Assembly (NCBI RefSeq): GCF_902806285.1
Contig: NZ_CADCWA010000160.1
Location: forward strand, 1 to 45,772
Length of the DNA stretch: 45,772 nucleotides
Direction: 5' to 3'
Source of the DNA: an uncultured Sphingomonas sp.
Lineage (GTDB): Bacteria; Pseudomonadota; Alphaproteobacteria; Sphingomonadales; Sphingomonadaceae
Position numbers and translations under genes: made by a program. The stretch's first letter is position 1. Every line of letters starts with the position of its first letter. Below are positions 13,422 through 42,944 of the stretch, in pieces. The notes under the pieces were generated by a model. That model searched no databases and was not told where the DNA came from. It saw nothing but the letters and a program-made list of their open reading frames with translations.

Positions 13422-13474
13422 TGCTCCGGCGAAGGCAGGAGCCCAGTACTGGACCCCTGCCTTCGCAGGGGTAC
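13422..13474. repeat. REP-like palindromic repeat in the rpsO-pnp gap
   Basis: CTCCGGCGAAGGCAGGAG and CCCCTGCCTTCGCAGGGG are each hairpins and are also mutual inverted repeats around CCCAGTACTGGA. The rpsO-pnp gap is where E. coli carries its RNase III-cleaved regulatory hairpin; here a genomic repeat occupies the position. A regulatory role is not shown. Confidence 0.75.
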
Positions 13475-13798: not shown

Positions 13799-14779
13799 CT
13801 ACAGGTTGAACCCGCGGACGACCTGGAGGACGTCGCCGGAGACCTCGACCAGCGCCACCGGACGATTGTCCTCGGTAGCCAGATAGAGACCCGGTTGCAC
13901 GGGCGGTCCCGGGAGCTTCTGTCCATGGCGGAGCAGCTGGGCGTCCAGGGGAGAGACGGGGAGGGCCGGGATGTCGTCCAGCCCCGCCGCGAGCGGCAGT
14001 ACCGCCCCGTCAAGCCGCCGCGCCTTAGCGGTTTCTTCCAGAAAGTCCAGCGGAATAGCCTGGTCGAGCGTGAACGGCCCGGCCTTCGTCCGGCGAAGCA
14101 TGGTGACGTGCCCGACCGTGCCGAGCGCTTGCGCGATGTCGCGCGCCAAGGAGCGGACGTAGGTGCCCTTGGAAACGGTGGCGGCAAGGGTAAGCTCCTC
14201 AAGCTCCTCCCCCTTGGGGGAGGTGGCGCGAAGCGCCAGAGGGGTGACTGACCCCTCTGTCGTGCTTCGCCCGACATCTCCCCCAAGGGGGAGAAGCCGG
14301 CTGACCGTCACTCGCCTTGCCTTCAGCGTCACTTCTTCACCGGCCCGCGCCAGGTCGTAGGCCCGCCGGCCATCCACCTTCAGCGCCGAAAACGCCGGGG
14401 GAACCTGCGCGATCTCGCCGGTAAAGCGGGGCAGCACAGCTTGGACCTGGGCAAGCGTGGGACGAATGGCGCTCCTCGCCACGACCTCACCTTCGGCATC
14501 CAGCGTACTCGTCTCCTCGCCGAACCGGACCGTGAACTCATATGCCTTGCTCGCCTCCAGCATGCGCCCGCACAGCTTGGTCGCCTCCCCCAGCGCAACC
14601 GGCAGCACGCCGCTGGCCAGCGGGTCGAGGGTACCGCCATGACCGACCCGCAGCTTGGGATAGCCGCCGACGCGCAACGCTCGTTTGACGGCCGTCACAC
14701 AGCCGGTCGAACTGGCTCCCACCGGCTTGTCGATGACCAGCCAGCCGTGAAGGTGGACGTTGTGCAAGGGGGTCGGCAT
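13799..14779 (-). CDS. truB: tRNA pseudouridine(55) synthase TruB with an in-frame repeat insertion
   Basis: 326-aa enzyme that isomerises U55 of the tRNA T-loop. The N-terminal GWLVIDKPVGASS and the catalytic motif GHGGTLDPLASGVLP, with Asp52 as the nucleophile, are intact. TVSKGTYVRSLARDIAQ and the C-terminal PUA-like part follow. Between strands ending TVSRLL and LEELTL there is an extra segment (about residues 162-192, TTEGSVTPLALRATSPKGEE in part). It corresponds exactly to a palindromic repeat at 14204-14294 that also exists in intergenic copies. Other TruB proteins have only a short loop here. The reading frame stays open, so the protein is probably made with a surface extension. Stop is 21 nt upstream of rpsO. 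Confidence 0.95.
   Translation of the reverse strand: MPTPLHNVHLHGWLVIDKPVGASSTGCVTAVKRALRVGGYPKLRVGHGGTLDPLASGVLPVALGEATKLCGRMLEASKAYEFTVRFGEETSTLDAEGEVVARSAIRPTLAQVQAVLPRFTGEIAQVPPAFSALKVDGRRAYDLARAGEEVTLKARRVTVSRLLPLGGDVGRSTTEGSVTPLALRATSPKGEELEELTLAATVSKGTYVRSLARDIAQALGTVGHVTMLRRTKAGPFTLDQAIPLDFLEETAKARRLDGAVLPLAAGLDDIPALPVSPLDAQLLRHGQKLPGPPVQPGLYLATEDNRPVALVEVSGDVLQVVRGFNL
14204..14294. repeat. Palindromic repeat inserted in frame inside truB
   Basis: CTCCCCCTTGGGGGAG-like outer hairpins at both ends (CTCCCCCTTGGGGGAGG and CTCCCCCAAGGGGGAG) enclose inner hairpins (GGCGCGAAGCGCC; CGTGCTTCGCCCG, degraded) and the central arms AGAGGGGT/ACCCCTCT. The layout and most bases match the intergenic copies at 26502 and 41011. 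About 30 codons are added to truB without breaking the frame. Confidence 0.92.
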
Positions 14780-25325: not shown

Positions 25326-26501
25326 ATGCGTACGGTTCGATTGCAAGCTGCAACTCTTGCGCTGCTGATTGGTGCCTGCTCCGCCTCCTCGTCCGCGGCC
25401 GACGAGCAGGCCGCACCGGCGCCGCAAAGCGACAACGCCACCGCCCAGACCACGGGTGGGAGCGCTCAGCAGACCGCCGGACGCCCGTTCAGCAGCGAAT
25501 CGGTGGCGAGCTTCTCGACCCCCTGGGCGATGGCCTTTCTCCCCGGCAGCGGCGTGGCCATGACCAACCGGGCCCTGGTCTCGGAGAAGGAAGGCCTGCT
25601 CTGGCTGGTGGACGTCGCCAGCGGGCAGAAGCAGCCGGTGTCCGGCTTGCCGGAGAACATCAAGGTCGCGGGGCAGGGCGGCCTCGGCGACGTGGTCGTG
25701 CATCCCGACTTCGCGGGCAACCAGCGCGTCTACCTGACCTTCGTCGAGCCGGGTCCGAACGGCACCAGCGGGGCCGCGGTCGGCTACGGCACGCTGGAGA
25801 TGGCGCGGAACGGATCCCGGCTGAACGGCTTCAAGGTCATCTGGCGGCAAACGCCCAAGGTCACCGGCAACGGCCACTTCTCGCACCGCATCGCCTTTGC
25901 GCCGGACGGGAGCATGTTCGTGTCGTCCGGGGACCGGGAGAAGATGGAGCCGGCCCAGGACCGGAACGTCGACCTCGGCAAGATCATTCACCTGGATGCG
26001 GAAGGCCAGCGCATCGGCCGGCGCTTCCATACCATGGGGCACCGCAACGTGCTCGGCCTGGCCTTTGCGCCCGATGGGCGGCTGTGGGCCGGCGAGATGG
26101 GCCCGAAGGGTGGCGACGAGGTGAACCTGATCGAGCAGGGCAAGAACTACGGCTGGCCGCAGGCATCCTACGGCAGCCACTATGAAGGACGGCCGATCCC
26201 CGACGACCACCGGGCGCGCGGTTTCGAGGAGCCCAAGGTGTGGTGGAACCCCGCCATCTCGCCGGGCGGCCTGATCGTCTACAACGGCGACCTGTTCCCG
26301 CAGTGGAAAGGCGACATCCTGATGGGAGCGCTGTCGGGCGAAGCGCTGATCCGGGTCGATGTGAACGGCGCAGTCGCGCGCAAGGGCAACCAGTGGCCGA
26401 TGAACGCCCGCATCCGCGAGGTCGAGCAAGGCCCGCGCGGCGAGGTGTACCTGCTGGAGGACGCCGGGCGGCTGTTGAGGCTCGAGCCGGCGCGAACCTA
26501 G
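25326..26501 (+). CDS. PQQ-dependent sugar dehydrogenase family lipoprotein (YliI/Asd type)
   Basis: 391-aa six-bladed beta-propeller of the glucose/sorbosone dehydrogenase family, oxidising aldoses or related sugars with PQQ in the periplasm. The N-terminus MRTVRLQAATLALLIGACSA has a lipobox (LIGAC), so it is a lipoprotein. Family motifs are FSTPWAMAFLPGSG, GQGGLGDVVVHPDF, FVSSGDREKMEPAQ, GHRNVLGLAFAPDGRLWAGE with MGPKGGDEVNLIEQGKNYGW (the catalytic and PQQ-site region), and NPAISPGGLIVYNGDLF. No PQQ synthesis gene is in the window. GTAAGGGAGAGG precedes the ATG. It converges on trmB with a palindromic repeat in the gap. Confidence 0.92.
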   Translation: MRTVRLQAATLALLIGACSASSSAADEQAAPAPQSDNATAQTTGGSAQQTAGRPFSSESVASFSTPWAMAFLPGSGVAMTNRALVSEKEGLLWLVDVASGQKQPVSGLPENIKVAGQGGLGDVVVHPDFAGNQRVYLTFVEPGPNGTSGAAVGYGTLEMARNGSRLNGFKVIWRQTPKVTGNGHFSHRIAFAPDGSMFVSSGDREKMEPAQDRNVDLGKIIHLDAEGQRIGRRFHTMGHRNVLGLAFAPDGRLWAGEMGPKGGDEVNLIEQGKNYGWPQASYGSHYEGRPIPDDHRARGFEEPKVWWNPAISPGGLIVYNGDLFPQWKGDILMGALSGEALIRVDVNGAVARKGNQWPMNARIREVEQGPRGEVYLLEDAGRLLRLEPART

Positions 26502-26597
26502 CTACTCCCCCTGGGGGAGAGGCGCGAAGCGCCGGAGGGGTAAGTAAATGACCCCTCTGTCAGCTGCGCTGACATCTCCCCCAAAGGGGGAGATGCT
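26502..26597. repeat. Palindromic repeat between convergent genes (same family as the truB insert)
   Basis: CTACTCCCCCTGGGGGAGAG, GGCGCGAAGCGCCGGAGGGG, then ACCCCTCTGTCAGCTGCGCTGAC, then ATCTCCCCCAAAGGGGGAGA: outer and inner hairpins around a central inverted repeat. It fills the gap between the sugar dehydrogenase stop and the trmB stop and ends within the trmB stop codon. The minus-strand translation LTEGSFTYPSGASRLSPRGS parallels the truB insert. Confidence 0.92.
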
Positions 26598-27350: not shown

Positions 27351-27893
27351 ATGTACGGCAACAACCCTCGCAGCACCGCACAGATCGGCGGGCACCCGCT
27401 GCATCCCATGCTGATCCCGATCCCGATCACCAGCTTCCTGTTCGCCTTCGGCACCGATCTGGCCCACGCGGCGACCGGCGACCGGCGCTGGGGCGAGGCG
27501 ACCAAGTGGCTGCTGGGCGCCGGGCTGGTCGGGGCGTTGGGCGCGGCGGCGACGGGGATGACCGACTATCTCGGCGACGAGCGGGTGAAGAAGCTGCCGT
27601 CCGCCAACCAGCACATGATCGCCAACCTCGCGCTGGTCGGGGTGCAGACCGCCAATCTCGGGCTGCGGCTGACCAACCGGCAGGAAGAGGTGCCGGCAGG
27701 CGGGCCGTGGCTGTCCGGGCTGGCGGCGGCGATCGTCGGCTACTCGGGCTGGCTCGGCGGCGAGCTGACCTACCGCCATCGGGTCGCAGTGCAGGAAACC
27801 CGCGACGAATATTCCGGCTACGACGACGGCCATGCCGAGGGCGGCCTGGGCGTCCCCCGCGGCGAAGTGCTAAAGGAGAAGATGGCGGAGTAA
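27351..27893 (+). CDS. DUF2231 domain-containing membrane protein
   Basis: 180-aa protein with four hydrophobic segments (IPITSFLFAFGTDLAH; WLLGAGLVGALGAAATG; IANLALVGVQTANLGL; GLAAAIVGYSGWLGGEL), matching DUF2231. The N-terminal GGHPLHPMLIPIPITSF is the family hallmark (HPLHP). The C-terminal tail is charged and Gly-rich (YSGYDDGHAEGGLGVPRGEV). Function unknown; relatives are predicted inner-membrane proteins, sometimes with haem-associated domains. ATG at 27351 has AGGAG 8 nt upstream. It is divergent from trmB (56-bp gap) and converges on metK across a REP repeat. Confidence 0.88.
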   Translation: MYGNNPRSTAQIGGHPLHPMLIPIPITSFLFAFGTDLAHAATGDRRWGEATKWLLGAGLVGALGAAATGMTDYLGDERVKKLPSANQHMIANLALVGVQTANLGLRLTNRQEEVPAGGPWLSGLAAAIVGYSGWLGGELTYRHRVAVQETRDEYSGYDDGHAEGGLGVPRGEVLKEKMAE

Positions 27894-27894
27894 G

Positions 27895-27970
27895 CGTCAT
27901 CCCGGCGAAGGCCGGGATCCCAGCGATAGCGCGCGGTTGACCTGAGATCCCGGCCTGCGCCGGGATGACG
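27895..27970. repeat. REP-like palindromic repeat between DUF2231 gene and metK
   Basis: CGTCATCCCGGCGAAGGCCG (then GGATCCCAG) is mirrored by GATCCCGGCCTGCGCCGGGA (then TGACG). It fills the convergent gap and ends 1 bp before the metK stop codon. Each arm is itself a hairpin, so it could stop transcription from both sides. Confidence 0.92.
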
Positions 27971-40085: not shown

Positions 40086-40994
40086 CTAGTTGCCGCTTGG
40101 AGCGGGCGGCGTCCAGCTGTCGTCGATCATCTTGATGATGGCGGAGAAGTCCTTGGACGCGCCCCCGCGGCTGACGAAACGCCCGTAGAGCTCCTCGGCC
40201 TCGCCGCCCATCGGCGTATAGGCGCCCACGCTCTGCGCCGCCTCCATCGCGAGCTTAAGGTCCTTGAGCATCAGCGCCGCCGCGAAACCGCCGTCATAGT
40301 TGCGGTCGGCGGGGGTCTCCGGACCGACGCCGGGCACCGGGCAGTAGCTCGTCATCGACCAGCTCTGGCCCGACGCCTTGGACGAGATGTCGAAGAACAC
40401 CTGCGGGTCGAGCCCGAGCTTCTGCGCCAGCACGAACGCTTCGCAGGTGCCCGCCATGGTAACGCCCAGCAGCATGTTGTTGACGATCTTCCCCGCCTGA
40501 CCCGCGCCGCTCTCCCCGGCGTGGATCACCGCCTTGCCCATCTTATCAAGGTAGGGGCGGGCTCGTTCGAAGCCGTCCACAGTGCCCCCGACCATGAAGG
40601 TGAGCGTTCCCGCGTCCGCGGCCGCAATGCCGCCGGACACGGGCGCGTCGACCATGGCGTAGCCGGCCTCCTGCGCTTCCTTGCCAACGCTCTTGGCTGT
40701 GGCAACATCGATGGTCGAGCAGTCGATCAGGATGGCGGAGGTAGGCGCCTGGCCGAACACGGCGGAGCGATAGACTTCTCCGACGTGCTTGCCTGCTGGC
40801 AGCATGGTGACCACCGCCTCGGCATTCCGGACAGCCTCCGCTGCGGACGCCGCGCGCGAGCAGCCTTTGTCCTCGGCTCGCGCAAGCGCATCCTCGCTGA
40901 GGTCGAAGGCGCGGACCTCATGGCCCGCCTTGGCCAGGTTCGCGGCCATGCCCCCGCCCATGTTGCCGAGCCCGATGAATGCGACGCGTGCCAT
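40086..40994 (-). CDS. mmsB: 3-hydroxyisobutyrate dehydrogenase
   Basis: 302-aa NAD-dependent enzyme of valine catabolism. It has FIGLGNMGGGMAANLAKAGH (Rossmann, GxGxMG), the substrate motif DAPVSGGIAAADAGTLTFMV, and the catalytic Lys region GAGQAGKIVNNMLLGVTMAG. The length is usual. It is the last gene of the valine set, separated from enoyl-CoA hydratase by a palindromic repeat (41011-41105). The final product methylmalonate semialdehyde would be handled by MmsA, which is not in the window. Confidence 0.96.
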   Translation of the reverse strand: MARVAFIGLGNMGGGMAANLAKAGHEVRAFDLSEDALARAEDKGCSRAASAAEAVRNAEAVVTMLPAGKHVGEVYRSAVFGQAPTSAILIDCSTIDVATAKSVGKEAQEAGYAMVDAPVSGGIAAADAGTLTFMVGGTVDGFERARPYLDKMGKAVIHAGESGAGQAGKIVNNMLLGVTMAGTCEAFVLAQKLGLDPQVFFDISSKASGQSWSMTSYCPVPGVGPETPADRNYDGGFAAALMLKDLKLAMEAAQSVGAYTPMGGEAEELYGRFVSRGGASKDFSAIIKMIDDSWTPPAPSGN

Positions 40995-41010: not shown

Positions 41011-41105
41011 GCTACTCCCCCTTGGGGGAGATGTCAGCGAAGCTGACAGAGGGGTCAGTCAGCACCCCTCCGGCGCTTCGCGCCTCTCCCCCAAGGGGGA
41101 GTAGC
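41011..41105. repeat. Palindromic repeat between mmsB and enoyl-CoA hydratase (truB-insert family)
   Basis: GCTACTCCCCCTTGGGGGAG at the left end is the exact reverse complement of the right end CTCCCCCAAGGGGGAGTAGC. Inside are GATGTCAGCGAAGCTGACAG, AGGGGT/ACCCCTCC and GGCGCTTCGCGCC. It is the best preserved copy, in the opposite orientation to the copy at 26502. Confidence 0.95.
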
Positions 41106-41107
41106 AA

Positions 41108-41884
41108 TCATCTACCCGACCAATTCCCAGGCCGCTTCTCAACAAAAGCGGCCATACCTTCCTTTTGGTCCTCACTCCCGAACAGGCCGTGGAACAGCCG
41201 CCGCTCGAAGCGGATGCCCTGGGCAAGCGGCATCTCGAACGCAGCGTTGACCATCTCCTTGCACGCGATCGCCGCCAGCGGCGCCATGGCGGCGATCTCG
41301 CCCGCGGTCTTCAGCGCCTCGTCGAGCAGGCTCGCCGCCGGGACCACCCGCGCCACCAGGCCGGCGCGCTCCGCCTCCTCCGCGCCCATCATCCGCCCGG
41401 TCAGGCACATCTCCATCGCCTTGGCCTTGCCCACCGCATGAAGCAGCCGCTGCGAGCCGCCCATGCCCGGCGTCACACCCAGCTTGATCTCCGGCTGCCC
41501 GAACCTCGCCGTGTCCGCGGCGATGATGAAGTCGGCCATCATCGCCACCTCGCACCCGCCGCCGAGCGCGAAGCCGCTCACCGCCGCGAGCCACGGCTTG
41601 CGGGTCGCGGTGACCTTCTCCCAGCCGGCGAAGAAGTCGCCCGCGTACATGTCCGCGAAGCCCTGCGCCTGCATCTCCTTGATGTCGGCCCCCGCCGCGA
41701 AGGCCTTCTCGGAGCCGGTCAGCACCAGGCAGCGCTGGCTGTCGTCCGCGTCATAGGCGGCGAAAGCGGCGATCAGCTCGCGCAGCACCTCGCTGTTGAG
41801 CGCGTTCAGCGCCTGCGGGCGGTTGAGGGTAACCAGCGTGACGCCGTCGCGCTGCTCGACGAGGATGGTGTTGTAGTCGGGCAT
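41108..41884 (-). CDS. Enoyl-CoA hydratase
   Basis: 258-aa crotonase-fold enzyme. It has [20 protein letters not shown], the oxyanion-hole segment [16 protein letters not shown], and [20 protein letters not shown], with the two catalytic Glu positions in GGGCEVAM and the later [13 protein letters not shown] region. In this cluster it would hydrate methacrylyl-CoA to 3-hydroxyisobutyryl-CoA. The ATG at 41884, 7 nt after the neighbouring stop, is the family start; the track ORF is 40 residues too long. Confidence 0.95.
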
Positions 41885-41891
41885 GTATTCC

Positions 41892-42944
41892 TCAGGCTTG
41901 AGGGAAGGGTGTCCACTGCTCGCTCTCGGGCAGCGGCGCAAACAGCTCGTTAAGCATCTCGTCCGTGACCTCTTCCGGGCTCGACGGCTCCCACTTCGGC
42001 GCATTGTCCTTGTCGATCAGCAGCGCCCGCACGCCTTCCACGAAGTCGTGCGTCCGGACCACGTGCGTCGCCAGCGCATACTCCGCCCGCATCTCCTCGG
42101 CGAAGTCGCGTCGCTTGGCACCCTCGGCAAGCAAGCGCAGCGACACCTTGCACGACAACGGGCTCTTGGACTTGATCGTCGCCAGCTCACTTTGCGCCCA
42201 GTCGCCCCCATCCTCCTCCAGGCACTTGACTATGTTCTCGAGGCGGTCGGAGGCGAACAGCTTGGCGATCGCGATCTGGTTCGCGGCGATCTTGGCCTCG
42301 GGGGCGATCCCCGCGAAGTTGCCGATCGCTCCGTTCACCCGGCCTGGCGTCTTGCCGACCCGCTCGACCAGCTCGGGGAGGGAGGCCTGCGCGACATAAT
42401 GGGTGGCGAGCCCGAGATACTTGCACTCCGCTCCGTCGAGCCGCGCGCCGGTCAGTGCCATGAACTGGCCGACCCGCCCGGGTAGGCGCGACAGATACCA
42501 ACCGCCGCCGACATCCGGGAACAGCCCGATACCCGTCTCCGGCATCGCCAGCCGCGTGTTCTCCGTCGCCACCCGGAACTTGCACGGCAGCGAGATGCCG
42601 ACCCCGCCGCCCATGGTGATGCCGTCCATCAGCGCCACAGTCGGCTTGGGGTAGGTGAACAGCAGGTGGTTCAGCCGGTACTCGGCATGGAAAAAGGCGT
42701 TGGCCTCGGCCCCGTCCGCCGCGCCGCTCCTGGCCAGCATGACCACGTCGCCCCCGGCGCAGAAGCCGCGGCCCTCGGCATGGTCAATCACCACCGCCTT
42801 GACGGCGGAGTCGCCGCGCCAGGCAAGCAGCGCCTCGCTGATCGCCTCGCACATCTCGCGGGTGAGCGCGTGGATCGCCTTGGGCCGGTTCAGCCGGACG
42901 CGCCCGACCGCACCTTCCACGGAGGTCAGGACATCGGAAGTCAC
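41892..42944 (-). CDS. 3-hydroxyisobutyryl-CoA hydrolase (crotonase superfamily)
   Basis: 350-aa protein, longer than hydratases as expected for HIBCH. It has [40 protein letters not shown] (oxyanion hole), [20 protein letters not shown], and [20 protein letters not shown] with the catalytic Glu/Asp pair of this branch. It releases free 3-hydroxyisobutyrate from its CoA ester. Its start overlaps the acyl-CoA dehydrogenase stop by 4 nt (ATGA). Confidence 0.94.

Follow-up and report, generated by a model that had tools for sequence, protein, structure and literature searches.

How does a palindromic repeat that otherwise occupies the gaps between genes come to lie, in frame, within a conserved tRNA-modifying enzyme? 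We addressed this question in a 45.8-kb contig (hereafter, the window) of a fragmented sphingomonad assembly (2.52 Mb, 203 contigs, 87% complete). An earlier note on this DNA had proposed that such a repeat is read in frame within truB. This was borne out: the truB frame is open across the element, which showed full-length similarity to other copies of the repeat, here called family A. The relevant features are as follows.

13799-14779, minus strand: truB, tRNA pseudouridine(55) synthase, 326 aa; frame open across the element; matches to TruB_N (E 3e-46), TruB_C_2 (E 1.5e-12) and TIGR00431 (E 3e-68)
14203-14297, minus strand: family A palindromic repeat, 95 bp, in frame, approximately residues 161-193 of TruB; full-length blastn similarity; absent from most same-genus relatives
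14203-14228: left outer palindrome arm, 26 nt
14234-14262: inner hairpin nested in the outer palindrome, 12-nt arms around 5 nt (14234-14245 and 14251-14262)
14272-14297: right outer palindrome arm, 26 nt, 88% complementary to the left arm
26500-26596, plus strand: family A intergenic copy (blastn), filling a convergent gene gap
41011-41105, minus strand: family A intergenic copy (blastn), between two minus-strand genes

The location originally given for the element (14204-14294) held, while its exact ends shifted to 14203-14297. Both further copies in the window lie between genes, as had been described: at 26500-26596, one neighbouring ORF ends at 26501 and a trmB-like ORF has its stop at 26596, and the 41011-41105 copy is flanked by ORFs at 40086-40994 and 41108-42004. 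Using blastn, we aligned the whole TruB element with each of them (88% identity, E 2e-27, for 41011-41105; 82%, E 8e-19, for 26500-26596), and the similarity thus extends well beyond the short GGGGGAG arms. The motif CTCCCCCTTGGGGGAG, with up to three mismatches, occurred 10 times compared to 0.87 expected, and GCGCGAAGCGCCAGAGGGG occurred three times compared to 0.15 expected.

The family A unit reads GCTnCTCCCCCTTGGGGGAG...CTCCCCCAAGGGGGAGnAGC, and its consensus starts with GCTnCTCCCCC and ends with GGGGGAGnAGC. Genome-wide, it was located at ~40 places, of which 35 span 85 bp or more, and it was detected in 7 of 71 same-genus genomes, including that of the window (E 1e-8). The insert peptide resembled the translations of other copies, such as LLPLGGDVERSSTEGSVSHPSGAARLSPKGEKL beside sufD, in line with the parallel that the earlier note had drawn for the two intergenic copies. 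Family A is thus a multi-copy palindrome, like the RPE-like protein-coding palindromes, and its 26-nt arms (88% complementary) are terminal inverted repeats of the kind found in MITEs. It does not have the unpaired CGTC at one end and the 8-9 bp stem of CGTC-tagged REPs. The flanks of the TruB copy (CTCAA and CGGCT) showed no target duplication when inspected by eye and without an exact empty site from a close strain. Family A copies had 3.4 of 6 frames open on average and shuffled sequences 3.1, giving no sign of a special coding design. Searching Rfam at a lax threshold returned hairpin matches below gathering, mostly to microRNA families (35.5 bits at best, where the gathering score is 168); these were rejected because they reflect composition and hairpin effects.

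Other palindrome-like sequences were seen in the window. At 13423-13472, between rpsO and a downstream pnp-like frame, the palindrome GGCGAAGGCAGG..CCTGCCTTCGCAGG resembles a CGTC-type REP dimer. Around 27890-27940, the last residues of a spurious ORF are VIPAKAGIP, as is typical when CGTC-type REPs are conceptually translated.

We then compared TruB with its relatives. Aligning the same-genus TruBs confirmed that most of them do not have the insert: their corresponding region is 22-27 residues long, compared to 48 in the window TruB, which has a net gain of ~25 residues over insert-less relatives. In the latter, a short beta-turn connects 'VTIHxL' with 'TLSATVSKGTYIRS'. The catalytic Asp52 and the remaining invariant TruB residues are all retained despite the insert. 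A genome-wide palindrome in frame in a conserved gene most of whose same-genus orthologues are free of it, with the enzyme motifs kept, has the RPE-like character that was originally suggested; RPEs proper have Rickettsiales hosts, and the host here is a sphingomonad. An AlphaFold2 model (58-sequence alignment) had a mean pLDDT of 91, mostly 92-98 in the core blocks and ~47-58 in the insert, which sits between strands 155-164 and 195-202. Its closest PDB fold match was E. coli TruB (1k8w), on which (1k8w_A) the extra residues fall in the gap between chain residues 172 and 178. The model thus predicts an intact TruB core and an insert that forms a disordered loop between two strands. The predicted disorder suggests that the protein is exposed and tolerant where the insert lies.

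The earlier note had described this one in-frame insert. The insert stood, but it is no single curiosity: it belongs to a pattern that recurs at the same turn of TruB. Long inserts were found at that turn in ~20 of 67 same-genus TruBs, mostly of families other than A. Their types (RHPRESGGPA..DPRFRGDDG, RHPELVSGSI..MLKQVQHDG, RPSEGWGPC..MDASLRWHDG and LPGTGRGT..GPPPRSGEE) are translations of different palindromic repeats, and additional types were present in other genera of Sphingomonadaceae. Searched against their own genomes, with both strands included in the counts, the HPRESG type gave 38, 39, 34 and 24 HSPs in G004, G031, G034 and G065, the HPELVSGS type 36 in G069, the LPGTGRGT type 76 in G122 and in G086, and the PHPTLSRE type 70 in G127. 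With family A, five families at the TruB turn were thereby verified as multi-copy in their own genomes; for types F, S, D and B3, the assignment was based solely on hairpin form and on the resemblance of their peptides. The conserved loop of one Erythrobacter-like genome served as a control and was single-copy there.

The independent insertions begin within a few codons of one place, approximately two codons past the HSL motif. At one TruB place, the LPGTGRGT family is read in two frames, as ILPGTGRGT and, with a shift of one base, as SSPARGGGP, and this speaks against selection for the peptide itself. Loci from other genera came mainly from unbroken TruB matches, so this sample is biased to long loops and does not give family-wide frequencies. 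In a class-wide sample of 86 alphaproteobacterial genomes, only one of the matches listed from outside the family (in G413) exceeded the TruB model by at least 60 bases, the excess being read by eye from match coordinates. This suggests that the pattern is mainly sphingomonad.

A long loop of similar length that is conserved and not derived from repeats, the alternative that had been raised for all sphingomonad TruBs, was confined to one clade. Erythrobacter-like genera (37 rows of the TruB set, among them L062, L114, L117, L124 and L134) have a non-palindromic loop, ..FATTAGRPDPYDPxAPLELADAVTL.., which is under purifying selection and, where its copy number was tested, occurred once. This loop may descend from an insertion that became fixed and functional, or it may be an independent loop.

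The truB searches also returned two unusual matches. G369:C1:432660-433337, in a 1.4-Mb single-contig alphaproteobacterial genome, has an internal TGA and may be either a pseudogene or a case of TGA read as an amino acid. G327 has two equal-scoring truB copies in opposite orientation, ~6 kb apart (C3:3597404-3598315 and 3604134-3605045), which might reflect a duplication or an assembly artefact.

To follow the loop over time, we mapped its label onto a 155-sequence TruB-core tree, in which Sphingomonas hankyongi TruB took its position within its genus. At least 63 state changes were required, or 34 when all repeats were lumped; these counts come from pattern-rule labels on a quickly built tree with the loop removed and many weak forks, and do not distinguish gain from loss. 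Three species of genus g66 (L159, L172 and L200) carry three different families at the turn, and two of them, the sister species L159 and L172, are separated by a core dS of only 0.10 and dN of 0.014.

Where orthologous repeat loops could be paired, dN/dS was raised in most of them. The four pairs gave 0.30, 0.48, 0.91 and 5.9, compared to 0.10-0.21 in the cores (small counts); three of them (0.48, 0.91 and 5.9) were well above their core values, and the remaining pair had 0.30 against 0.17. Conserved non-repeat loops had a dN/dS of 0-0.19. Synonymous distance was lower in the repeat loop than in the core in all four pairs (small counts), which could mean constraint on the hairpin. In 38 of 71 cases, the long repeat-type loop was the most structured stretch of its own gene.

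TruB is not the only protein affected. In the window's genome, family A interrupts MurD in frame, in an N-domain loop that holds other repeat types in relatives. Family A also lies in the CoaBC linker, exactly between the two domains, and in UvrD, at a place that spans 82 residues compared to 15 in the solved homologue. A second MurD loop contains HPRASGDP..DPRFRGGD in G004. In the other family A-spanning frames examined, no domain was split by the element or the N terminus was ambiguous, indicating that most copies lie outside conserved domains and that the clear coding ones are at tolerant places.

Several apparent overlaps were left out of the coding insertions. These were N-terminal-side overlaps in SufD, ErpA, RecG, PrmA, an M48 peptidase, LigD and an EamA transporter, uncounted because the element may be upstream of the true start, and a 507-aa ORF across the 41011 copy together with many others, which had no Pfam domain and were regarded as spurious high-GC frames. 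Family A overlaps the N-terminal side of frames L242:638-1741 (PrmA), L243, L245, L004 (SufD), L029 (ErpA) and L011 (RecG), where its translation depends on the true start codon. The second MurD loop, which is variable and lies in the middle region, carries repeat-like peptides in L212 (the G004 MurD) and L231 (the G084 MurD).

Taken together, we consider it probable that the TruB turn is a permissive surface site that tolerates recurrent, nearly neutral in-frame insertion of palindromic repeats. A copy of the multi-copy family A would have inserted in frame at the beta-hairpin turn that immediately precedes the SKGTYxRS motif, and the ~25 extra disordered residues would be tolerated because the turn is outside the folded core. 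Such permissiveness may also be why unrelated families entered the turn many times in Sphingomonadaceae, with decay, loss or replacement following, and other tolerant sites (the MurD N-domain loop, the CoaBC linker and the UvrD loop) would take up repeats likewise. The TruB insert is presumably translated in the cell and nearly neutral, and copies of family A would have spread by transposition-like copying; if so, the earlier note's wording of new protein sequence made from a mobile palindrome would hold.

The main rival is that the turn is a DNA-level hot spot, at which the copying machinery prefers the sequence or its hairpin and protein tolerance is secondary. The narrow range of insertion starts after HSL and the rapid swapping of families among sister species fit this explanation. 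However, the site is used by unrelated families with different ends, the MurD loop is also recurrent in a different protein context, the flanks of the TruB copy have no obvious target duplication, and the majority of copies lie outside conserved domains. We regard targeting of this kind as unlikely. Less likely still, and in our view improbable, is retention of the insert by selection, whether for an RNA hairpin that tunes the truB-rpsO-pnp transcript or for a beneficial peptide. The strong structure of 38 of the 71 long repeat-type loops, the reduced synonymous change in orthologous loops and the purifying selection on one clade's similar-length non-repeat loop could be taken in its favour, but the insert is missing from many relatives, neither family nor reading frame is constant, dN/dS of repeat loops is generally high, and murD behaves in the same way.

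An ordinary lineage-specific loop or a misassembly with chance likeness to the repeat is very hard to credit. Although the assembly is fragmented and one clade does have an ordinary long loop at this turn, the full-length match had an E of 2e-27 and the pattern was seen again in numerous independent genomes, often assembled as a single contig. It is conceivable, if rather doubtful, that the turn is instead a standing acceptor slot in which unrelated families are exchanged fast across the whole family, through targeting or usefulness, and that at least once, in the Erythrobacter-like genera, an insert was possibly fixed as a functional segment.

Under the preferred reading, a permissive turn, intergenic repeats have entered protein-coding sequence repeatedly outside the intracellular Rickettsiales, and a single defined site offers dozens of natural replicates. 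Close species show the TruB turn empty, filled, decayed or swapped, so that one can test directly whether new protein segments are seeded by selfish repeats. Recently diverged species pairs could reveal insertion boundaries and mechanism. Annotators and structure predictors should be aware that TruB and MurD loops in Sphingomonadaceae are often repeat-derived.

Protein-coding palindromes are already known. RPEs occur in frame in many Rickettsia genes at exposed positions, and orthologues can hold different RPE groups at the same location (PMC3767692). A guanylate kinase that contains an RPE is known to be translated and to be active (PMC2229807). In its main text, a 2013 survey (BMC Genomics 2013, 14:522; PMC3733652) mentions R. 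conorii truB with RPE-1 and describes REPs inside UvrD-type helicases and inside the truB genes of Sphingopyxis alaskensis, Erythrobacter litoralis and Stenotrophomonas maltophilia. It proposes that insertion into loops or linkers would be neutral. That main text names the truB genes, and no shared turn, family range, turnover, MurD or CoaBC appears in it. Within the open-licence literature searched, including that main text, we found no description of the shared turn, the family exchange, MurD or CoaBC.

Like RPE-1 to RPE-7 of Rickettsia and the WPEs of Wolbachia, family A is a multi-copy palindrome of ~100 bp found in frame within conserved genes, at sites that are solvent-exposed in the proteins of those elements and, from the predicted disorder, probably so in TruB. 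It is set apart by description, as a GC-rich repeat in a free-living sphingomonad, and many more families share one site in sphingomonad TruB than is the case for RPEs, with quick replacement. Intragenic GTAG/CGTC-tagged REPs lie in truB and UvrD-type helicases, as do the repeats here (PMC3733652, main text); family A ends in neither CGTC nor GTAG, whereas some inserts in TruBs of relatives, the HPRESG and HPELVSGS types, resemble CGTC REP dimers. The Correia and ERIC/RU-1 MITEs, whose ORFs are fused in frame, are likewise small non-autonomous repeats read in genes (PMC2229807); for family A, no target duplication was seen by eye at the TruB copy. The known precedents are thus the RPEs of Rickettsia and the REPs that the 2013 survey described in truB of two sphingomonads. 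What is new here is the repeat family, the single TruB site that families share, their rapid exchange at it, and MurD.
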